NCBI GenBank assembly: GCA_002779605.1
Contig: PEWE01000030.1
Location: forward strand, 1 to 64,000
Source of the DNA: Zetaproteobacteria bacterium CG06_land_8_20_14_3_00_59_53
GTDB lineage: Bacteria; Pseudomonadota; Zetaproteobacteria; Mariprofundales; Mariprofundaceae
DNA length: 64,000 nt
Reading direction: 5' to 3'
Position numbers and translations under genes: made by a program. The notes below the pieces were generated by a model, which saw only the letters and a list, made by a program, of their open reading frames with translations, was not told the origin of the DNA and did not search any database. How positions within the stretch are numbered: position 1 is the first letter of the stretch; each line of letters starts with the position of its first letter. Shown one piece after another: positions 7,424 to 15,606 of the stretch.

Positions 7424-9028
7424 ATGTTAGAACAAATCCAATCCTCCACTGAGAGCGTCATGCTCACCGCCGCCAAGGGTAAGACCGGCAAACAGGATGT
7501 GTTTGCAAATCTGTTCAAGGCACTGGCCGGCAAAGGCATCGCAGGCGCAGCTCAGGTGAAAGCCGGCAAGTTCGGTGCGGCCTCCATCACTCATCCGCAG
7601 CTCATCAACCTGAAGGCCAAAGCCGCCGCCAATGCTCTCAAGGGACACAAGGGCGAGGGACTGGAAGATGAAGCCGCAGCACTGAAGGCTGCCTCCGGCA
7701 AGAAGACCGCCAAGGCCGATACTCAGACAACAACCCCGCAGGTTGTAGCTGTTGACGTTGCCACCCGCCCGCTGGCTGCACATGCCGACAAGCCTGCCGC
7801 CACGGGAGATGAAGACGGAGAACATCAGGAAGCATCGCGTCAGGGTAAGCTGTCGAGCGGCAATAACGGCCGGAAGAGCGCAGAAGAACCCCTGCAAATC
7901 GAGACCAGGAACATCAAAGGTCGGTCGCAAACGGCACAGACCAGGACTCCGGCGGAACACCTGAACGATTCGAATCCCCAGATCGGCATTGCCCGGACTC
8001 AGGCTGCAGCACCCAACAGCGTGCAGTCATCAGACCGGGCTGCCGACAAGACCCCGGATAGAATCAATCCTCTGGCCGCAGGGGAAAAAGCTGCAACGGT
8101 GAAGCAGGCGAATGACGGCAGCGAGCCTGTCCGCCCGGAATCCGGGGACACACAGTCTGCCGCACGCGCAACCACCCGCCGCGGCCCAGCTCAGCCGGTT
8201 GCTCAGGATCATCATACCAAAGCTGCAACGCAAACCACCGTCATTGACAATGAGACCCCGCAACTCGATGCCGATGCCATCCAGCGCATCCGCGACGAGC
8301 TTGCCGCTATAACCGACAAGTCAGCTCAGGACAACCATGCCAAACTCAACGGCAAGGATGCGAAGACCGCAGGACAGTTCACAGTGCAGACCCATCATGC
8401 ACAGACACAGCAAGGCAACAGCGCAGCAGCGACTCAAGGGGTCACAGCACAAGCCGCACAGACAGCCGCAGCGGTAGCTGCCGAAGCCGGCCAGCACAGC
8501 GGCGGGCAGGACGCCAGACACGATGCCCCCGACAACCGCCTGATGGCCGCCGCATCCAGCGACAGCAAGCCGCAGCAGGCCTTCGATCTGCAGCAGCAGA
8601 GTGCTGTACGCATGGCCCATCCGATGCGCCCGATGGAGGCCATGCAGAACATCGCCCTGTCGGCAGCCAACGGCACCACGAAACTCGAACTGCAACTGGA
8701 GCCGGCGCATCTGGGCAAGGTGCATATCTCGCTGCAAACCGATGCAGCCAAACATCTGCAGATGCATCTGACCGTGGAAAGCGCTGCTACCCGTCAGGTC
8801 ATCGAGCAGCACATGCCGCAGTTGCGTGCCGCACTCGAACAGCAGGGCCTGAACCTCGACAACTTCTCGCTGCACACCGGCTCTGAGGGACGGCATCAGC
8901 AACAGGGTTTTGAATATGCCGCACGCACCGACAGCGCCAACAACAATGACTGGGCCGGCAACACGGTCGAAGGCAATGCCCCCGATGCACCGGCCTTCGC
9001 CGGTTCACGGCTGAGCATCCACATCTAG
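7424..9028 (+). CDS. fliK: Flagellar hook-length control protein FliK
   Basis: Secreted molecular ruler that ends hook growth and switches export specificity through FlhB, 534 aa. The long N-terminal part (about 1-400) is Ala/Gln/Thr-rich and low complexity, as usual for FliK. The conserved C-terminal domain (about 415-490) has LELQLEPAHLGKVHISL, VESAATRQVIEQ and LRAALEQQGL. It is followed by flgD and flgE. The first ATG (7424) lies at the predicted transcription start of the sigma-54 promoter and has no good ribosome site; ATG 7460 (Met13) is preceded by GAGAG and may be the true start. Confidence 0.9.
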   Translation: MLEQIQSSTESVMLTAAKGKTGKQDVFANLFKALAGKGIAGAAQVKAGKFGAASITHPQLINLKAKAAANALKGHKGEGLEDEAAALKAASGKKTAKADTQTTTPQVVAVDVATRPLAAHADKPAATGDEDGEHQEASRQGKLSSGNNGRKSAEEPLQIETRNIKGRSQTAQTRTPAEHLNDSNPQIGIARTQAAAPNSVQSSDRAADKTPDRINPLAAGEKAATVKQANDGSEPVRPESGDTQSAARATTRRGPAQPVAQDHHTKAATQTTVIDNETPQLDADAIQRIRDELAAITDKSAQDNHAKLNGKDAKTAGQFTVQTHHAQTQQGNSAAATQGVTAQAAQTAAAVAAEAGQHSGGQDARHDAPDNRLMAAASSDSKPQQAFDLQQQSAVRMAHPMRPMEAMQNIALSAANGTTKLELQLEPAHLGKVHISLQTDAAKHLQMHLTVESAATRQVIEQHMPQLRAALEQQGLNLDNFSLHTGSEGRHQQQGFEYAARTDSANNNDWAGNTVEGNAPDAPAFAGSRLSIHI

Positions 9029-9043
9029 GCAAGGGAGACAGCG

Positions 9044-9718
9044 ATGGCCATTTCAGGTGTAAATCAGACTACGACAACTGCAACCACCGCTGCCAATCAG
9101 CAGGCTCGCACCGATCTCGGTCAGAAGGACATCTTCCTCAAGCTGCTGGTCGCACAGATGAAGTTCCAGGATCCGCTGAAGCCGCAGGACCCGACCCAGA
9201 TGGCCAGCCAGCTCGCCCAGTTCAATATGGTGGAACAACAGACCAGTACCAACACCCTGCTCAAGGAACTGGTTGCCAGGGGCGGCAGCACGGGCAGCAG
9301 CAATAATGATGTGAGCGCCACATGGCTCGGTCACACAGTCACCGTGAATCAGAGCAAGGTGCATTTCGACGGCGTCGCACCGCAGAGCTTCAACGTCAAC
9401 CTGCCGGCCGATGCAGGCATCGGCTTCCTGACGATCTCGGATGCCACCGGCAACCCGGTACGCACCGCACAGATCGGCGGCATGACGGCAGGCGTCAATC
9501 CGTTCAACTGGGATGGCTCGATGGACAACGGTGCCACAGCCCCGGCCGGCGATTACAGCATCACTGTGAGCGCCTCGGATATGTCCGGTACTCCGATGAC
9601 CCCGACAGTTTCGCGCAGCGGCATTGTGGAAGCCGTGCGCTTTACGACCACAGGCAACGAACTGGTGGTCGGCGGCATTGCCGCAGCCACAGCAGATATC
9701 ACGGAAATCCGCCCGTAA
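9044..9718 (+). CDS. flgD: Flagellar hook cap / assembly protein FlgD
   Basis: Hook-capping scaffold required for polymerisation of FlgE, 224 aa. The N-terminal signature KDIFLKLLVAQMKFQDPLKP, followed by DPTQMASQLAQFNMVEQ, is diagnostic of FlgD. The C-terminal half has the FlgD Ig-like/tudor region with NPFNWDGSMDNGATAPAGDY. It begins 15 nt after fliK with an AAGGGAGA ribosome site and precedes flgE, the standard gene order. Confidence 0.96.
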   Translation: MAISGVNQTTTTATTAANQQARTDLGQKDIFLKLLVAQMKFQDPLKPQDPTQMASQLAQFNMVEQQTSTNTLLKELVARGGSTGSSNNDVSATWLGHTVTVNQSKVHFDGVAPQSFNVNLPADAGIGFLTISDATGNPVRTAQIGGMTAGVNPFNWDGSMDNGATAPAGDYSITVSASDMSGTPMTPTVSRSGIVEAVRFTTTGNELVVGGIAAATADITEIRP

Positions 9719-9749: not shown

Positions 9750-11147
9750 ATGGGTATTTATAATGCATTGTTCACGGGCGCCAGCGGACTTTCATCCTTC
9801 GGTGAAGCGGTGCGCGTCATCGGCGACAATATCGCCAACGTCAATTCACTGGGTTTCAAGAGCCAGAACATCGTGTTCTCCGATGTGCTCTCTCAGACCC
9901 TCGGTGTGACGCGTTCCAATATCGCCAACCAGGTCGGTAACGGTGTGCGCATCGGCGCCATCACCCGCGACGGCGCGCAGGGCTCGGTGCAAAGCACCAC
10001 CAACCCGACCGATATGGCCATCAACGGCAACGGCCTGTTCGCGCTGCGCGACCCGGCCAGCAGCCAGCTGTCCTACACGCGTGCAGGCGCCTTCATCCTC
10101 GATAAGGATTCCAATCTGATCGACGGTCAGGGCAATGTGGTGCAGGGCTGGGCCACCGATCCGGTGACCGGCATCGCGGTCGGCAATGTCCGCGACATCA
10201 CCTTCGCCAATCTGGCCGCCCAGGCTCAGGCCACCACGACGGTGGATCCGAGTCTTTCTCTGGACTCCAACGCGGTACCGCTTGCCACGGGTACGGTATT
10301 TGATCCCGCCGACCCGGCCACCTATCACTACAAGGCCGAGGTGAACATCTTCGACTCGCTGGGCAAGACCCATGCGGTCAGTATCCAGATGACCAAGATG
10401 GGCCTGGATGCCACGGGCAACGCCGTGTGGGACTGGCACGCCACGGTGGACGGCGGTGATGTCACCGGCGGCACGGCAGGCACACCCAAGGAGATCGGCG
10501 TCGGCGCAGGCCAGACCCTGCCCACCGCATCCACGGTGAATGTATCCGGCGTGGTCACAGCGGTCGGCACACAATCGCTGGTCTTCGGCGCAAATGGTGA
10601 ACTGGTCACTGAGGCATCTCCCTCACTGACATTCCTTTGGACCAATGCCACGCCGAGCCTGGTCGCCATGAACTACGGTAATGCCACCACCACCGATGCG
10701 CAGGCAGTCACCGGCACCGGTCTGGACGGCACCGTGCAGATGGCCGGTAGCTTCGCCACCCGGCAGATGGTGCGCGACGGCTTCACCTCGGGCTTCCTGG
10801 ATAAACTGGAAACCGACTCCTCCGGCACCATCTTCGGTGTGTTCACCAACGGTCAGCGGCGTTCGCTGTATCAGGTGGCCCTCGCCAAGTTTCCCAACGA
10901 GGATGTGCTCAACCATGTCGGTAACAACCTGTTGCAGGAGACCATCGCATCCGGCACCCCGGTGCTGGAGAAGCCCGGCAACGGCGGCATGGGCACCATC
11001 GCCCCGTTCGGTCTTGAGCAGTCGAATGTTGATCTGGCCAACGAGTTCGTCAAACTCATCGTGGTTCAGCGTGGTTACGAGGCCAACTCCAAGACCATCC
11101 TGACCACCGACCAGATGTTGCAGTCGCTGATGCAAGTCAAGCGGTAA
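9750..11147 (+). CDS. flgE: Flagellar hook protein FlgE
   Basis: Structural subunit of the hook, 465 aa. The N-terminal rod/hook signature SFGEAVRVIGDNIANVNSLG and the C-terminal helix EFVKLIVVQRGYEANSKTI are the conserved axial coiled-coil segments. The middle part (DPATYHYKAEVNIFDSLG...) is the FlgE D2 region. An AGGAGG-type site precedes the ATG. It is the last gene of the fliK operon and is followed by a strong terminator. Confidence 0.97.
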   Translation: MGIYNALFTGASGLSSFGEAVRVIGDNIANVNSLGFKSQNIVFSDVLSQTLGVTRSNIANQVGNGVRIGAITRDGAQGSVQSTTNPTDMAINGNGLFALRDPASSQLSYTRAGAFILDKDSNLIDGQGNVVQGWATDPVTGIAVGNVRDITFANLAAQAQATTTVDPSLSLDSNAVPLATGTVFDPADPATYHYKAEVNIFDSLGKTHAVSIQMTKMGLDATGNAVWDWHATVDGGDVTGGTAGTPKEIGVGAGQTLPTASTVNVSGVVTAVGTQSLVFGANGELVTEASPSLTFLWTNATPSLVAMNYGNATTTDAQAVTGTGLDGTVQMAGSFATRQMVRDGFTSGFLDKLETDSSGTIFGVFTNGQRRSLYQVALAKFPNEDVLNHVGNNLLQETIASGTPVLEKPGNGGMGTIAPFGLEQSNVDLANEFVKLIVVQRGYEANSKTILTTDQMLQSLMQVKR

Positions 11148-11226: not shown

Positions 11227-11631
11227 CCTGCCTTTGAATCTGACCGTCATGTTTTGCCTACGGGCCCTGCCGTAGCGGTGCCGGTTCACTGGTTTGTTTT
11301 TCGGGAATTACGCAAAGAAAGCGGGCCTCACTCGCGATTTGCGACCGAAAAACAAGCCAGCGAACCGGAAATTCACCGCTGCTTGTGGGTGCCTTTTCTT
11401 GCTTCTTCTTTGGGCAAGCAAAGAAGAAGGAAAGAACGGCTCATCTGACCTATGAACCCGGTCGGTGAATTGCAGAAACTCTGCCCAAACCCTTCTTCTT
11501 TCTTGAGTGGCCAAGAAAGAAGCAAAGAAGCAAAGAAGCAAAGAAGGCCACCCACGGGTTTCTGTGAACTTCCGGTCCGGCACAGCTACAAGTGGGCCCC
11601 GAGAGTCAAAAGCGGACATAACAGGCAAAGA
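11227..11631. repeat. Intergenic composite hairpin element, copy A
   Basis: Non-coding element between flgE and motA, similar in plan to 30210-30658. It has inverted ends with a CTTTGCCTGT...GGGCCC signature and a large hairpin with 24-nt arms at 11281-11304 and 11345-11368 (22 Watson-Crick pairs, 40-nt loop). Two smaller hairpins have 11-bp stems, at 11402-11412/11419-11429 (loop GGCAAG) and 11495-11505/11512-11522. Conserved GGAAxTTCAC and GTGGGTGCC blocks lie between them in mirrored order. An (AAAGAAGC) octamer is repeated about three times after 11515. Short open frames inside it look like chance products of the purine/pyrimidine runs. Confidence 0.75.
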
Positions 11632-11797
11632 CGGGAAGATATTGAGCCGCGAATCAAATCTGAGTGGTGCAATTGCAAGTGAAACATATCCTCAAAACAT
11701 GCTTTCCGGCTTGCAGGCCAAATTAGCACGCTTCTTGCTTGATGGTGGTCGGACCCGGCCCGATGGCTGAGCCACATTGCGACAAGGAGACGGATCT

Positions 11798-12556
11798 GTG
11801 GATATCGCAACCCTCATCGGCATTCTATTGGCCTTCGGTCTGGTGGGCTTCGCCATCGGCGGCGGACTGCCAAGCTTCATCGACCCTCCCTCCATCATGA
11901 TCGTCATCGGCGGCACCATCGGCGTGGTGCTGGTCAGCTATCCGCTGGCCGATGTGCTGAAACTCATCGGCGTGACCCTGAAAACCTTCATGTACAAGAT
12001 GAACAGCCCGAGCGAGACCATCACCGAGCTGGTCGAGCTTTCCCAGGTGGTGCGCAAGGAAGGCATCCTCGCGCTGGAAAGCAAGATGGGCGACATCTCC
12101 AACCAGTTCATGGCCAAGGGCCTGCAAATGGCCATTGACGGTCAGGAGCCCGGCGAGATAGAAGAAATTCTCTACATGGAGATGGACAAGCTCAGTGCCC
12201 GCCATGCCAAGGGTGCGGACATCATGGCACAGGTAGGCACCATGGCCCCGGCCATGGGCATGATCGGCACACTGGTCGGTCTGGTGCTGATGCTGCAGAA
12301 CATGTCCGACCCGTCATCCATCGGTCCGTCGATGTCCATCGCCCTGCTGACCACATTCTACGGTGCGCTGATCGCCAACATCATCGCCCTGCCGATGTCC
12401 GCCAAGCTCAAGAGCCGCAGCAAGGATGAGGTGATGCTGCACGAGATCATCCTGACCGGTATTCAATCACTGGTAGCAGGCGAGAACCCTCGCGTTATGG
12501 AACAGAAACTGCTTGGCTATCTGCCGCCGAAAGATCGTAAGTCGGCATTCGATTAA
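11798..12556 (+). CDS. motA: Flagellar motor stator protein MotA/PomA
   Basis: Inner-membrane stator subunit that forms the ion channel with MotB and transmits torque to FliG, 252 aa. Four membrane helices are visible (about 1-22, 29-50, 145-170 and 178-200), with the MotA/TolQ motif AKGADIMAQVGTMAPAMGMIGTLVGL before helix 3 and a cytoplasmic charged loop (about 55-140). Length and charge pattern are closer to PomA than to E. coli MotA. The GTG start at 11798 is preceded by AAGGAG eight bases upstream, which decides it over the upstream TTG at 11777. It heads the motA-fliP operon; I see no promoter matching sigma-54 or sigma-28 upstream. Confidence 0.94.
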   Translation: MDIATLIGILLAFGLVGFAIGGGLPSFIDPPSIMIVIGGTIGVVLVSYPLADVLKLIGVTLKTFMYKMNSPSETITELVELSQVVRKEGILALESKMGDISNQFMAKGLQMAIDGQEPGEIEEILYMEMDKLSARHAKGADIMAQVGTMAPAMGMIGTLVGLVLMLQNMSDPSSIGPSMSIALLTTFYGALIANIIALPMSAKLKSRSKDEVMLHEIILTGIQSLVAGENPRVMEQKLLGYLPPKDRKSAFD

Positions 12557-12579: not shown

Positions 12580-13353
12580 ATGGCACGCGAAAAGCGCCCC
12601 GAACCTATCCCGGCACCGAAAGACCCGGGCGCGGCTCTGTTTCTGGAATTGATGATGCAAATGCTGGCCTTTTTCATTCTGCTTACCTCGATGGCTGTGA
12701 TTGTCGACGAGAAGCGCCTGGCTGCACTCGGTTCTCTGGCCGGCACCTTCAGCCCTCTGCCCAGAGGTGCCAACCTCAGCGAAGGCGAAGGGCCAAGCAT
12801 GCCCAGCCGGGACATTGTCGATGGCAAGCATGCACCCAAGCGAACCGCCAAAGCATTGACAGATGTGGCCAAGGCCCTTGGCGCCAGCGATGCCATCAAC
12901 GTTTTGCAGCTCGATCAGGAGAATGTGCAGGTGCGGCTTACACAGGCCATCGCCTTCGAGCCCGGCAAGGTGACGTTGTCGCCGGCTGCCATTCCGTTGA
13001 TGGATGAACTGGCCATACTGTTCAGCAGACCGGAGGTCATTGAAATCATGATTCAGGGGCATACCGATGAAACGCCGACGCGCGGCTCGCTGTACGCCTC
13101 CAACTGGGAGCTTTCCGCAGCTCGTGCCATGGCCATTTTCACAGAACTTTCCCGCCGCGGTGTAGCTAACGGACGAATGGTGGTAGCCGGTATGGGCGAC
13201 CAGCATCCGCTAATCCTGAACGGCAAAGATTTGAGCCGCCGCGTGGAAATCGCCCTGAAATTCAGACCGGTGACCGATGAACAACAGGACACCATCACCG
13301 ACAAGAACTTCAAGCCGTTTTCGCGCCCCGCTGTCGCGCCGAAAGGACTATAA
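12580..13353 (+). CDS. motB: MotB-like stator protein 1, with Glu at the ion-carrying position
   Basis: OmpA-type peptidoglycan-anchored stator subunit, 257 aa. The single membrane helix (about 20-42) reads FLELMMQMLAFFILL. Glu23 sits where MotB/PomB normally have the essential ion-carrying Asp (E. coli D32, Vibrio D24). A plug/linker region (about 43-125) precedes an OmpA domain with IQGHTDETP and SNWELSAARAMAI, so peptidoglycan binding looks intact. It lies between motA and a second MotB with the normal Asp. I infer either a specialised or weakly conducting partner in a mixed stator, or a gene drifting out of use; the intact OmpA motifs argue against decay. Confidence 0.88.
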   Translation: MAREKRPEPIPAPKDPGAALFLELMMQMLAFFILLTSMAVIVDEKRLAALGSLAGTFSPLPRGANLSEGEGPSMPSRDIVDGKHAPKRTAKALTDVAKALGASDAINVLQLDQENVQVRLTQAIAFEPGKVTLSPAAIPLMDELAILFSRPEVIEIMIQGHTDETPTRGSLYASNWELSAARAMAIFTELSRRGVANGRMVVAGMGDQHPLILNGKDLSRRVEIALKFRPVTDEQQDTITDKNFKPFSRPAVAPKGL

Positions 13354-13356
13354 GCC

Positions 13357-14106
13357 ATGGCCCGCAAGAAGAAACAGGAACCGGAAGTATTGCCGAATCC
13401 GGAATCGTGGATGGGCACCTTCGCCGACCTGGTCAGCCTGATGCTGACTTTCTTCATTCTTCTGGTGTCGATGTCCACATTGGATAAGACCGGCCTGTCG
13501 GATATATCCACCTACTTCAAGCGTGCAGTCTCGGTACTCAATGCCGGCGAGAAAACCGAGATGCAGATGATCAGTCCCTTTGAAATGCAGCGCATCGTCA
13601 AGCCGCGCGAATTGATGCTCGCCATGCGGCAGAACTCCCGCAAGGTGCTGCAGAACAGCACGCTGGAACACAAGGTGAATGCCATCATCCTGAACGACCA
13701 GCTGATTTTGCGCATGAGCGATGCTGTGCTCTTCGAACCCGGCCGGGCCGATCTGAATGCGGCGCATGATGAAGCATTGAAGCGACTGGCTCGCATGCTC
13801 TCCGCATCGCCGGGCATGATCCGCGTGGAAGGCCATAGCGACACAGGAAAATTACCCGACGACAGCCCGTATCCGGATGCCTGGAGCCTGTCACTGGCAA
13901 GAGCGGCATCAGTCTTGCGTGTGCTTGAGCGCGAGGGCGTGAATACCTACCGCCTGTCGCTGGCGGGATACGGCTCTTCACGACCGGTATCCACCGAGGC
14001 AACACCCTATGGGCGTGCCAAGAACAGACGCGTGGATATTGTCCTCTACAGCGAAGAGAACAGAAACAGCGGAAACACGGAGGTGGACGATGGCCAAGGA
14101 CGATAA
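13357..14106 (+). CDS. motB: MotB-like stator protein 2, with canonical Asp
   Basis: Second MotB/PomB-type protein, 249 aa, starting three nucleotides after the first. The membrane helix holds TFADLVSLMLTFFILL with the ion-binding Asp24, at the same position as in Vibrio PomB. The C-terminal OmpA domain reads VEGHSDTG...DAWSLSLARAASVL, in which the first Asn of the usual NWELSxxRA motif is replaced. By sequence this is the probable working partner of MotA. The 3' end overlaps fliL by 17 nt. Confidence 0.93.
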   Translation: MARKKKQEPEVLPNPESWMGTFADLVSLMLTFFILLVSMSTLDKTGLSDISTYFKRAVSVLNAGEKTEMQMISPFEMQRIVKPRELMLAMRQNSRKVLQNSTLEHKVNAIILNDQLILRMSDAVLFEPGRADLNAAHDEALKRLARMLSASPGMIRVEGHSDTGKLPDDSPYPDAWSLSLARAASVLRVLEREGVNTYRLSLAGYGSSRPVSTEATPYGRAKNRRVDIVLYSEENRNSGNTEVDDGQGR

Positions 14107-14605
14107 GAAAGAAGGCGAGGAAAGCGGCGGGAAATCCGGAGGAGGCGGCCTGCTGCCGCTCATCAATCTGGTGTTGCTCGTACTACTGCTCGGTATCGGC
14201 GGTTTCAATACCTGGACGCTGATGCAGATGGATAAACCCGCCCCCACCGAAGCAGTCAAACCGACTGCCGACACACTGATTCCGGAAGCCGTTGATCCGG
14301 GTGATGGTCCGGCAGTGGAGATGGAGCTGGATGATGTCACCGTCAATCTGGCTGATGCGAATCGCTACCTGAAGGTGACCATCAAGCTTTCGCTGCGTAA
14401 CGAAGAAGCCAAGATAAAGATCGAGGAGAAAAAATCCGAGATCAATGACCTGCTGATTACGCTCATGTCCGGCAAACACTACGATGACATCAGCACACCG
14501 CTGGGCAAATACGAGCTGAAAGAAGAGCTGGTGCATCGCATCAACAAGGCGGTCGGCGGCAATCCTGTGCGCAAACTTTTCTTCACGGACTTCGTGTCAC
14601 AATGA
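14090..14605 (+). CDS. fliL: Flagellar basal body-associated protein FliL
   Basis: Inner-membrane protein around the stator that supports torque and ion flow, 171 aa. A short Lys/Gly-rich cytoplasmic tail precedes one membrane helix (about 22-42, LLPLINLVLLVLLLGIGG) and a periplasmic stomatin-like domain (about 75-171) containing VNLADANRYLKVTIKLSL and LRNEEAKIKI. The ATG at 14090 is set by GGAGG six bases upstream, inside the 3' end of the second motB. Its stop overlaps the fliM start (ATGA). Location beside the two MotB genes fits its stator role. Confidence 0.93.
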   Translation: MAKDDKKEGEESGGKSGGGGLLPLINLVLLVLLLGIGGFNTWTLMQMDKPAPTEAVKPTADTLIPEAVDPGDGPAVEMELDDVTVNLADANRYLKVTIKLSLRNEEAKIKIEEKKSEINDLLITLMSGKHYDDISTPLGKYELKEELVHRINKAVGGNPVRKLFFTDFVSQ

Positions 14606-15606
14606 GTGAGAACCCTCGTCAGCCCGTTCTGGAGCCGGAAGAGATTGCGGCACTGATGGAGAAGATTGCGCCGAACGAACAGGCGCAGGCGATCTTCGCC
14701 ACCCTTCCCCCCATCCCCCAGCCGGAGCATGTCGAGGCGTTCAGCTACGAAAGCGAAGGGCCGGAAGGGCCGGAGCGTTATCCGCTGTATGCGGTGATCC
14801 AGCAGCATCTTTGCGAACACCTGCGCGAACACATGAACGACACCTTCCAGCGCACCATCACGCTGGATCTCGATGGTATGACGCAAGCACCCTACGAAGA
14901 GCTGATCACTTCCGAGGATTCCCGTGTATATCTGGTGTTCGACTGCGAAGGCTTCGGCCTGATGCTGGTGATCGTGGATACCCGTCTGGTGGTCACCTAT
15001 GTGGATGCGCTGCTGGGCGGCAATGGCGAGGCGCATAACGGCATGGATGAGCTGTCTCCGGTCGAAGAAAGGCTTGCCGTGCGTTTCGCCAATGCCCTGA
15101 AAGGCATGCTGGAAGAAGCCTGGAAACCTATCCACCCGATCAAATTCAAGCTCATCAAGGTGGAAACCGATGTGGACTTCCTCGGCGTGGCATCGGTCAG
15201 GGAGTCCTGTTTCAAGACCACCTACCAGATCAAACTGTGCAAGGATGTGCAGGGAAATCTGAACATCTGCTACCCGCGCACCTACCTCGAACCGATTCTC
15301 AATGAGTTGCGCAACAGTGCGCAGGAGGCACCGGCCAGCATGGACGAGGCGTGGAGCCGCGATCTGCTGAACTGTCTGCAGGATGCACCTGTGGAGCTCC
15401 GCCTTGAGATGGGCACGGTTCCGATGCTGGTGCGCGACTTCCTCACCCTCAAGCCCGGCGATCATCTGCCCATCTACAAACGGGAAATAGACCCGGTGAC
15501 GCTGTGGGTCGAGTCCGAACCGATGTTTCAGGTCATGGCCGGACAGCGCGACGGCTCGCTGGCGGCCGAGATCGTCGCAATCAAGAAAACCGGAGGCAAA
15601 TCATGA
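14602..15606 (+). CDS. fliM: Flagellar motor switch protein FliM
   Basis: C-ring protein that binds phospho-CheY and FliG, 334 aa. The middle domain carries YVDALLGGNGEAHNGMDELSPVEERLA, the GGxG...SPxE signature, and the C-terminal SPOA (surface presentation of antigens) domain ends with DFLTLKPGDHLPI. The N-terminal CheY-binding peptide, usually LSQEEIDALL, reads VLEPEEIAALMEKI here, with the central Asp replaced by Ala. Start and stop both overlap their neighbours by four bases, so translation is probably coupled along fliL-fliM-fliN. Confidence 0.95.
   Translation: MSENPRQPVLEPEEIAALMEKIAPNEQAQAIFATLPPIPQPEHVEAFSYESEGPEGPERYPLYAVIQQHLCEHLREHMNDTFQRTITLDLDGMTQAPYEELITSEDSRVYLVFDCEGFGLMLVIVDTRLVVTYVDALLGGNGEAHNGMDELSPVEERLAVRFANALKGMLEEAWKPIHPIKFKLIKVETDVDFLGVASVRESCFKTTYQIKLCKDVQGNLNICYPRTYLEPILNELRNSAQEAPASMDEAWSRDLLNCLQDAPVELRLEMGTVPMLVRDFLTLKPGDHLPIYKREIDPVTLWVESEPMFQVMAGQRDGSLAAEIVAIKKTGGKS

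Follow-up and report, generated by a model that had tools for sequence, protein, structure and literature searches.

The Asp in the transmembrane (TM) helix of MotB has been taken as indispensable, and the rotary model of the MotA5B2 stator assumes two equivalent ion sites. In canonical PomAB and MotAB stators the two B chains are identical and each carries the Asp. In Aquifex aeolicus a single operon, motA-motB1-motB2, encodes one MotA and two MotBs. Its MotB1 and MotB2 are 97% identical in their TM/N-terminal regions, and each MotB, as a chimera in its periplasmic part, worked with the A. aeolicus MotA in E. coli (PMC4525482). The Myxococcus gliding motor AglR-AglQ-AglS is also a 5:2-type motor system with one MotA and two MotB homologues. 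AglQ and AglS are both reported with the Asp, and heterodimer formation is stated as unknown (PMC9389320). For neither system is an Asp-less partner reported, and we found no description of such a MotB partner, or of zetaproteobacterial stators, in the openly licensed papers searched.

Like A. aeolicus, the zetaproteobacterium analyzed here, of an iron-oxidizer type, encodes two MotB-type proteins behind a single MotA. In the window, a 64,000-nucleotide stretch of contig PEWE01000030.1, motA (11798..12556, + strand; a GTG start was taken, TTG at 11777 being a possible alternative) is followed by the genes for P1, an Asp-less MotB-like protein of 257 amino acids (12580..13353, +), and P2, an Asp-bearing MotB of 249 amino acids (13357..14106, +). 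The gap between P1 and P2 is 3 nt. P2 overlaps fliL (14090..14605, +; Pfam FliL 3.3e-22), its downstream operon neighbor, by 17 nt, and fliM, named from sequence (14602-15606), comes next. The same flagellar gene run includes fliK (7424-9028) and flgD (9044-9718), with a hook-protein-like gene, called flgE from its sequence (9750-11147), upstream of motA. The original prediction of two MotB-type reading frames back to back was correct, with Pfam matches to OmpA and MotB_plug in both P1 (1.2e-15 and 3.6e-05) and P2 (5.5e-19 and 6.9e-17). Between the hook gene and motA (11250-11600) is a dispersed repeat that contains nested inverted arms as well as runs of AAAGAAGC. It matches at 27 places in this genome and at up to 43 in a related genome of the genus.

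The motA product, a PomA/MotA-type pentamer subunit, matches Pfam MotA_ExbB (2.8e-31). Its best solved relatives are MotA (8ucs/6ysf, 5e-61) and Vibrio PomA (8bri, 1e-56), and the best NCBIfam model is PomA with a score below the cut-off. Given this closeness to PomA and the invariant threonines T158, T185, and T186, the stator is likely Na+ coupled. This motA is the sole MotA-like gene at E<=1e-4 in a genome that is 99.95% complete, in agreement with the proposal that one MotA serves both MotBs. The relatives G001, G003, G009, and G010 likewise have one MotA match each at E<=1e-4. A search of the genome for a further flagellar stator found none, and no match to MotA was obtained for the remaining MotA_ExbB genes. 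A third MotB_plug match, on contig C32, was rejected as a flagellar stator; it is a MotB-type TM segment on a VWA-like protein beside a MotA-like gene. At that locus (L003 835-2622, near 40.7-41.4 kb of C32 in G000), the MotA/ExbB-like protein and, after it, the protein that joins a MotB-type TM helix to a VWA-like domain may form a 5:2 motor of a non-flagellar kind. Some relatives, mainly of a Mariprofundus-type genus (g9), encode an additional Asp-bearing MotB (L143-L150, L154). As this MotB has its own MotA, these bacteria have two stator types.

As in canonical MotA5B2 stators, MotA here is PomA/MotA-like and P2 is a normal MotB; unlike in those stators, the two B chains differ and P1 has no Asp. 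A gap-free alignment of FLELMMQMLAFFILL (P1) with FADLVSLMLTFFILL (P2) places Glu23 of P1 (12646..12648, +) opposite the ion-carrying Asp24 of P2 (13426..13428, +), which bears out the predicted correspondence. Among 54 distinct P1 sequences from the class, position 23 is Glu in 51, Gln in three, and Asp in none, ruling out chance or a sequencing error behind Glu23. Position 24 is Asp in all 53 distinct P2 sequences. The framing of P1 as a conservative D-to-E variant is too narrow because three P1 lineages have Gln and the apparent counterparts in another class have Ser, Gly, or Ala; P1 is more aptly called a MotB partner that lacks the Asp. The A. aeolicus MotBs are near-identical in the TM and both functional as chimeras, whereas the overall identity of P1 to P2 is about 30%, their TM segments are unlike each other, and that of P1 lacks the Asp, which AglQ and AglS are both reported to have. 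An Aquifex-like arrangement occurs in two other Pseudomonadota (G048, G057), where one MotA gene is followed by tandem genes for two MotBs with the Asp (L136 2064-3645, +; L137 with MotB frames at 2433 and 3249, reverse strand).

P1 has the architecture of MotB and PomB: a single N-terminal TM helix (residues 20-42, 12637..12705, +; residues 16-40 in the model), a plug-like helix region (residues 43-65, 12706..12774, +; conserved ...KRLAALGSLAGTFSP..GAN, pairwise identity 0.78), and an OmpA-like peptidoglycan-binding periplasmic domain (12940..13263, +). The AFFILL core of MotB is also found in P1. The invariant TM Asp of the MotB/PomB family is present in P2 and absent from P1. Against Pfam MotB_plug P1 scores 23.7 bits, with a cut-off of 24, and 26.4 bits, above the cut-off, in a six-frame search; it scores far below the cut-offs of all NCBIfam MotB/MotD/MotS models. 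Single-chain models of P1 and P2 each have a TM helix and an OmpA-like domain, at a mean pLDDT of 65 for P1 and 71 for P2, a modest confidence. The best fold matches of the P1 model are PomB/MotB periplasmic domains. Such domains are also among the best PDB matches of the P2 model, in which the OmpA-like fold is present, and PDB matches of P2 to MotB/PomB reach 2e-27.

To determine how widespread the pair is, we surveyed 78 genomes of the class, 54 of which encode MotB_plug proteins and were counted as flagellated. P1 is encoded in all 54. The relatives with P1 that carry a name are Mariprofundus, Ghiorsea, and other Mariprofundales, which places this genome in the Zetaproteobacteria. P2 is encoded in the identical 54 genomes and neither protein occurs without the other, so an Asp-less paralogue is indeed kept beside a normal MotB in related genomes, as the original prediction had asked, and a strain-specific change is rejected. 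In a P1 profile search the matches within the class had E <= 1.4e-28 and the best match outside it 1.3e-7. The order motA-P1-P2-fliL is kept in the 73 loci examined, wherever the contig is long enough. Over 49 loci, the mean pairwise identity of the P1 TM helix (0.93) is like that of the P2 TM helix (0.92) and of MotA TM3 (0.90) and TM4 (0.88), with lower values for MotA TM1 (0.78) and TM2 (0.73) and for the FliL TM helix (0.75). Because the MotA pentamer encloses the B dimer in MotA5B2 (PMC9093738), this pattern fits, indirectly, a place for the P1 helix inside the MotA ring.

It had been proposed that both OmpA domains are intact. The fold is present in both, and the full peptidoglycan-binding signature (GHTDxxP..SNWELSAARA) only in P1, where Asp163 (54/54), Asn175 (54/54), and Arg182 (53/53) are invariant. 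The OmpA-like domain of P2 (13693..14049, +) retains Asp162 and has Ala175 in place of the Asn. Its orthologues have Asp (27), Asn (19), Ser (5), or Gly (1) at position 162, the Asp being absent from 25 of the 52 with a residue there, and Pro (41), Ala (5), Leu (5), or Ser (1) but never Asn at position 175. Arg182 is retained in 52/52. Among 21 Asp-bearing MotBs of other Pseudomonadota used as a control, all have the ion Asp and 10 lack the peptidoglycan Asp. This weakens the idea that P2 needs a partner since it has lost peptidoglycan binding, and for the same reason the contrast between P1 and P2, while real, falls short of proving a dependence of P2 on P1. In a group of single MotBs with an intact ion Asp (L119-L122, L128, L129, L134, L135, L152), the peptidoglycan Asp is replaced by Gly, Ser, or Glu-adjacent variants and the Arg is usually missing, which suggests another mode of anchoring in these proteins.

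The P1 profile also weakly matched MotB-like proteins in which Ala or Ser replaces the Asp and whose genes lie directly upstream of one for an Asp-bearing MotB. They belong to a second class of the Pseudomonadota, judged from gene neighborhood to be probably the Alphaproteobacteria. At E <= 1e-4, a profile of these Asp-less proteins matched 112 genomes out of the 385 in that class; ordinary MotBs account for some of the weaker matches. The best 30 of the 112 were read, and the Asp-less/Asp tandem is found in 30/30. In 34 distinct Asp-less partners the residue is Ser (18), Gly (12), or Ala (4), and the neighboring MotB has Asp in 34/34. When plasmids were searched for a named example of the second-class Asp-less protein, none matched. 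Like P1-P2, these tandems (L117, L118, L123-L125, L127, L130, L131, L157-L186) have the Asp-less gene directly upstream of the Asp-bearing MotB, and the Asp-less protein has a similar LxxLLAFFILLN core. Unlike P1, it has Ser, Gly, or Ala rather than Glu or Gln; MotA is encoded elsewhere; and the anchor motif is mostly on the Asp-bearing protein, whereas in the zetaproteobacterial pair it is on the Asp-less one. One genome (G663) encodes one MotA and only that MotB pair. In the tree each set forms a clade, with P1 beside the second-class Asp-less set (89/74) and P2 beside the Asp-bearing partners (87/84), on long branches. As the branches are very long and a single clade of P1 and P2, which would reflect a lineage-specific duplication, is not rejected (p-AU 0.118), the tree fits either one ancient pair or two independent origins.

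We favor, with some confidence, a heteromeric stator in which MotA5 surrounds P1 and P2, with P2 as the ion carrier and P1 as its anchoring, Asp-less partner. One PomA/MotA-type pentamer would enclose two unlike MotB helices, and the driving ion would load on Asp24 of P2. Glu23 or Gln23 of P1 would fill the second central site, perhaps with weak or no conduction, and would not be the main carrier. P1 would serve as the canonical peptidoglycan anchor, a role largely lost by P2. That P1 and P2 form a physical dimer within one MotA ring is what we infer from comparing the sequences. Consistent with it are the occurrence of the pair in exactly the same genomes, in a kept gene order with a single MotA; the fixed contrast at the ion site, together with anchor residues intact in P1 and degraded in P2; purifying selection on P1, with a TM helix as conserved as those of P2 and MotA TM3 and TM4 and not like that of FliL; and the recurrence in the second class of an Asp-less gene followed by an Asp-bearing one, in G663 with a single MotA. 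On the other side, the structural models are of single chains and of modest confidence, and with Glu in 51 of the 54 P1 sequences, Glu23 may still carry ions.

P1 might instead be an accessory anchor or assembly factor. It would then attach to peptidoglycan and contact the stator from beyond the MotA ring, in the manner of MotY or FliL, and working stators would be MotA5-P2(2). P2 alone has all that is needed inside the membrane, and P1 combines a strong OmpA anchor with a partial MotB_plug match and no Asp. The second-class Asp-less proteins lack the Asp as well as the anchor motif, which would also suit such a role. However, conservation of the P1 helix and plug region follows the pattern of helices enclosed in the pore and not that of FliL, P1 has the MotB core, and its gene is never found apart from motA and P2. 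We consider a place outside the ring unlikely.

A heterodimer does not follow from the presence of two motB genes, since the A. aeolicus MotA works with either MotB as a chimera (PMC4525482). P1 and P2 could form separate homodimers that share MotA, giving Asp-based and slower Glu-based stators swapped with load or ion supply. A Glu at this site is partly functional in other MotBs: Borrelia, E. coli, and Salmonella with D-to-E changes were still motile to a lesser degree, and the Borrelia stators still assembled in part, with about 62% occupancy (PMC6663468). Glu23 could therefore contribute to ion transfer, and P1 has kept both the anchor and the plug. Against this stand the three lineages with Gln, two of which (G001, G009) encode no other MotA or MotB, the Ser, Gly, or Ala of the second-class counterparts, and the strict one-to-one co-occurrence of P1 and P2. 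If G001 and G009 swim, the P1 carboxylate is not needed there, and given such Gln lineages Glu23 need not contribute. Interchangeable homodimers appear improbable, slightly more so than the accessory role.

Although P1 has lost a residue held essential, a redundant or decaying paralogue is refuted as far as sequence allows and can be set aside as highly implausible, given class-wide retention, invariant TM and peptidoglycan residues, and pairwise dN/dS values of 0.05-0.18 (pairs with usable dS), near those of P2 and FliL. A pseudogene or relaxed selection is rejected on these grounds, as the original prediction had anticipated in judging P1 not to be decaying, and the outcome it named as a possible refutation, a Glu23 confined to one strain under relaxed selection, is excluded. 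With class-wide co-occurrence, a kept gene order, a near-invariant Glu, and low dN/dS, P1 is by its sequence record an old, constrained component.

The MotB pair is real and more widespread than the original prediction held, and the interpretation given there is supported in part. If the two proteins do pair, they would make up an unequal form of the flagellar stator. More tentatively, MotA5-P1-P2 may be a naturally asymmetric stator in which each unit has a single ion-carrying Asp rather than two, ions pass along P2, and P1 holds the unit to the wall. Many members of the class may have no other motor. Such a stator would pass about 5 instead of 10 ions per turn, moving in 72-degree or limping steps, and the second class would have an analogous Asp-less/Asp pair. 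As a natural experiment, the pair would address the number of acids required in a stator, the number of ions spent on each turn, and whether one subunit can anchor while another transfers ions. The pair is also relevant to AglR/Q/S, for which the possibility of a heterodimeric axle in 5:2 motors is stated to be open (PMC9389320).
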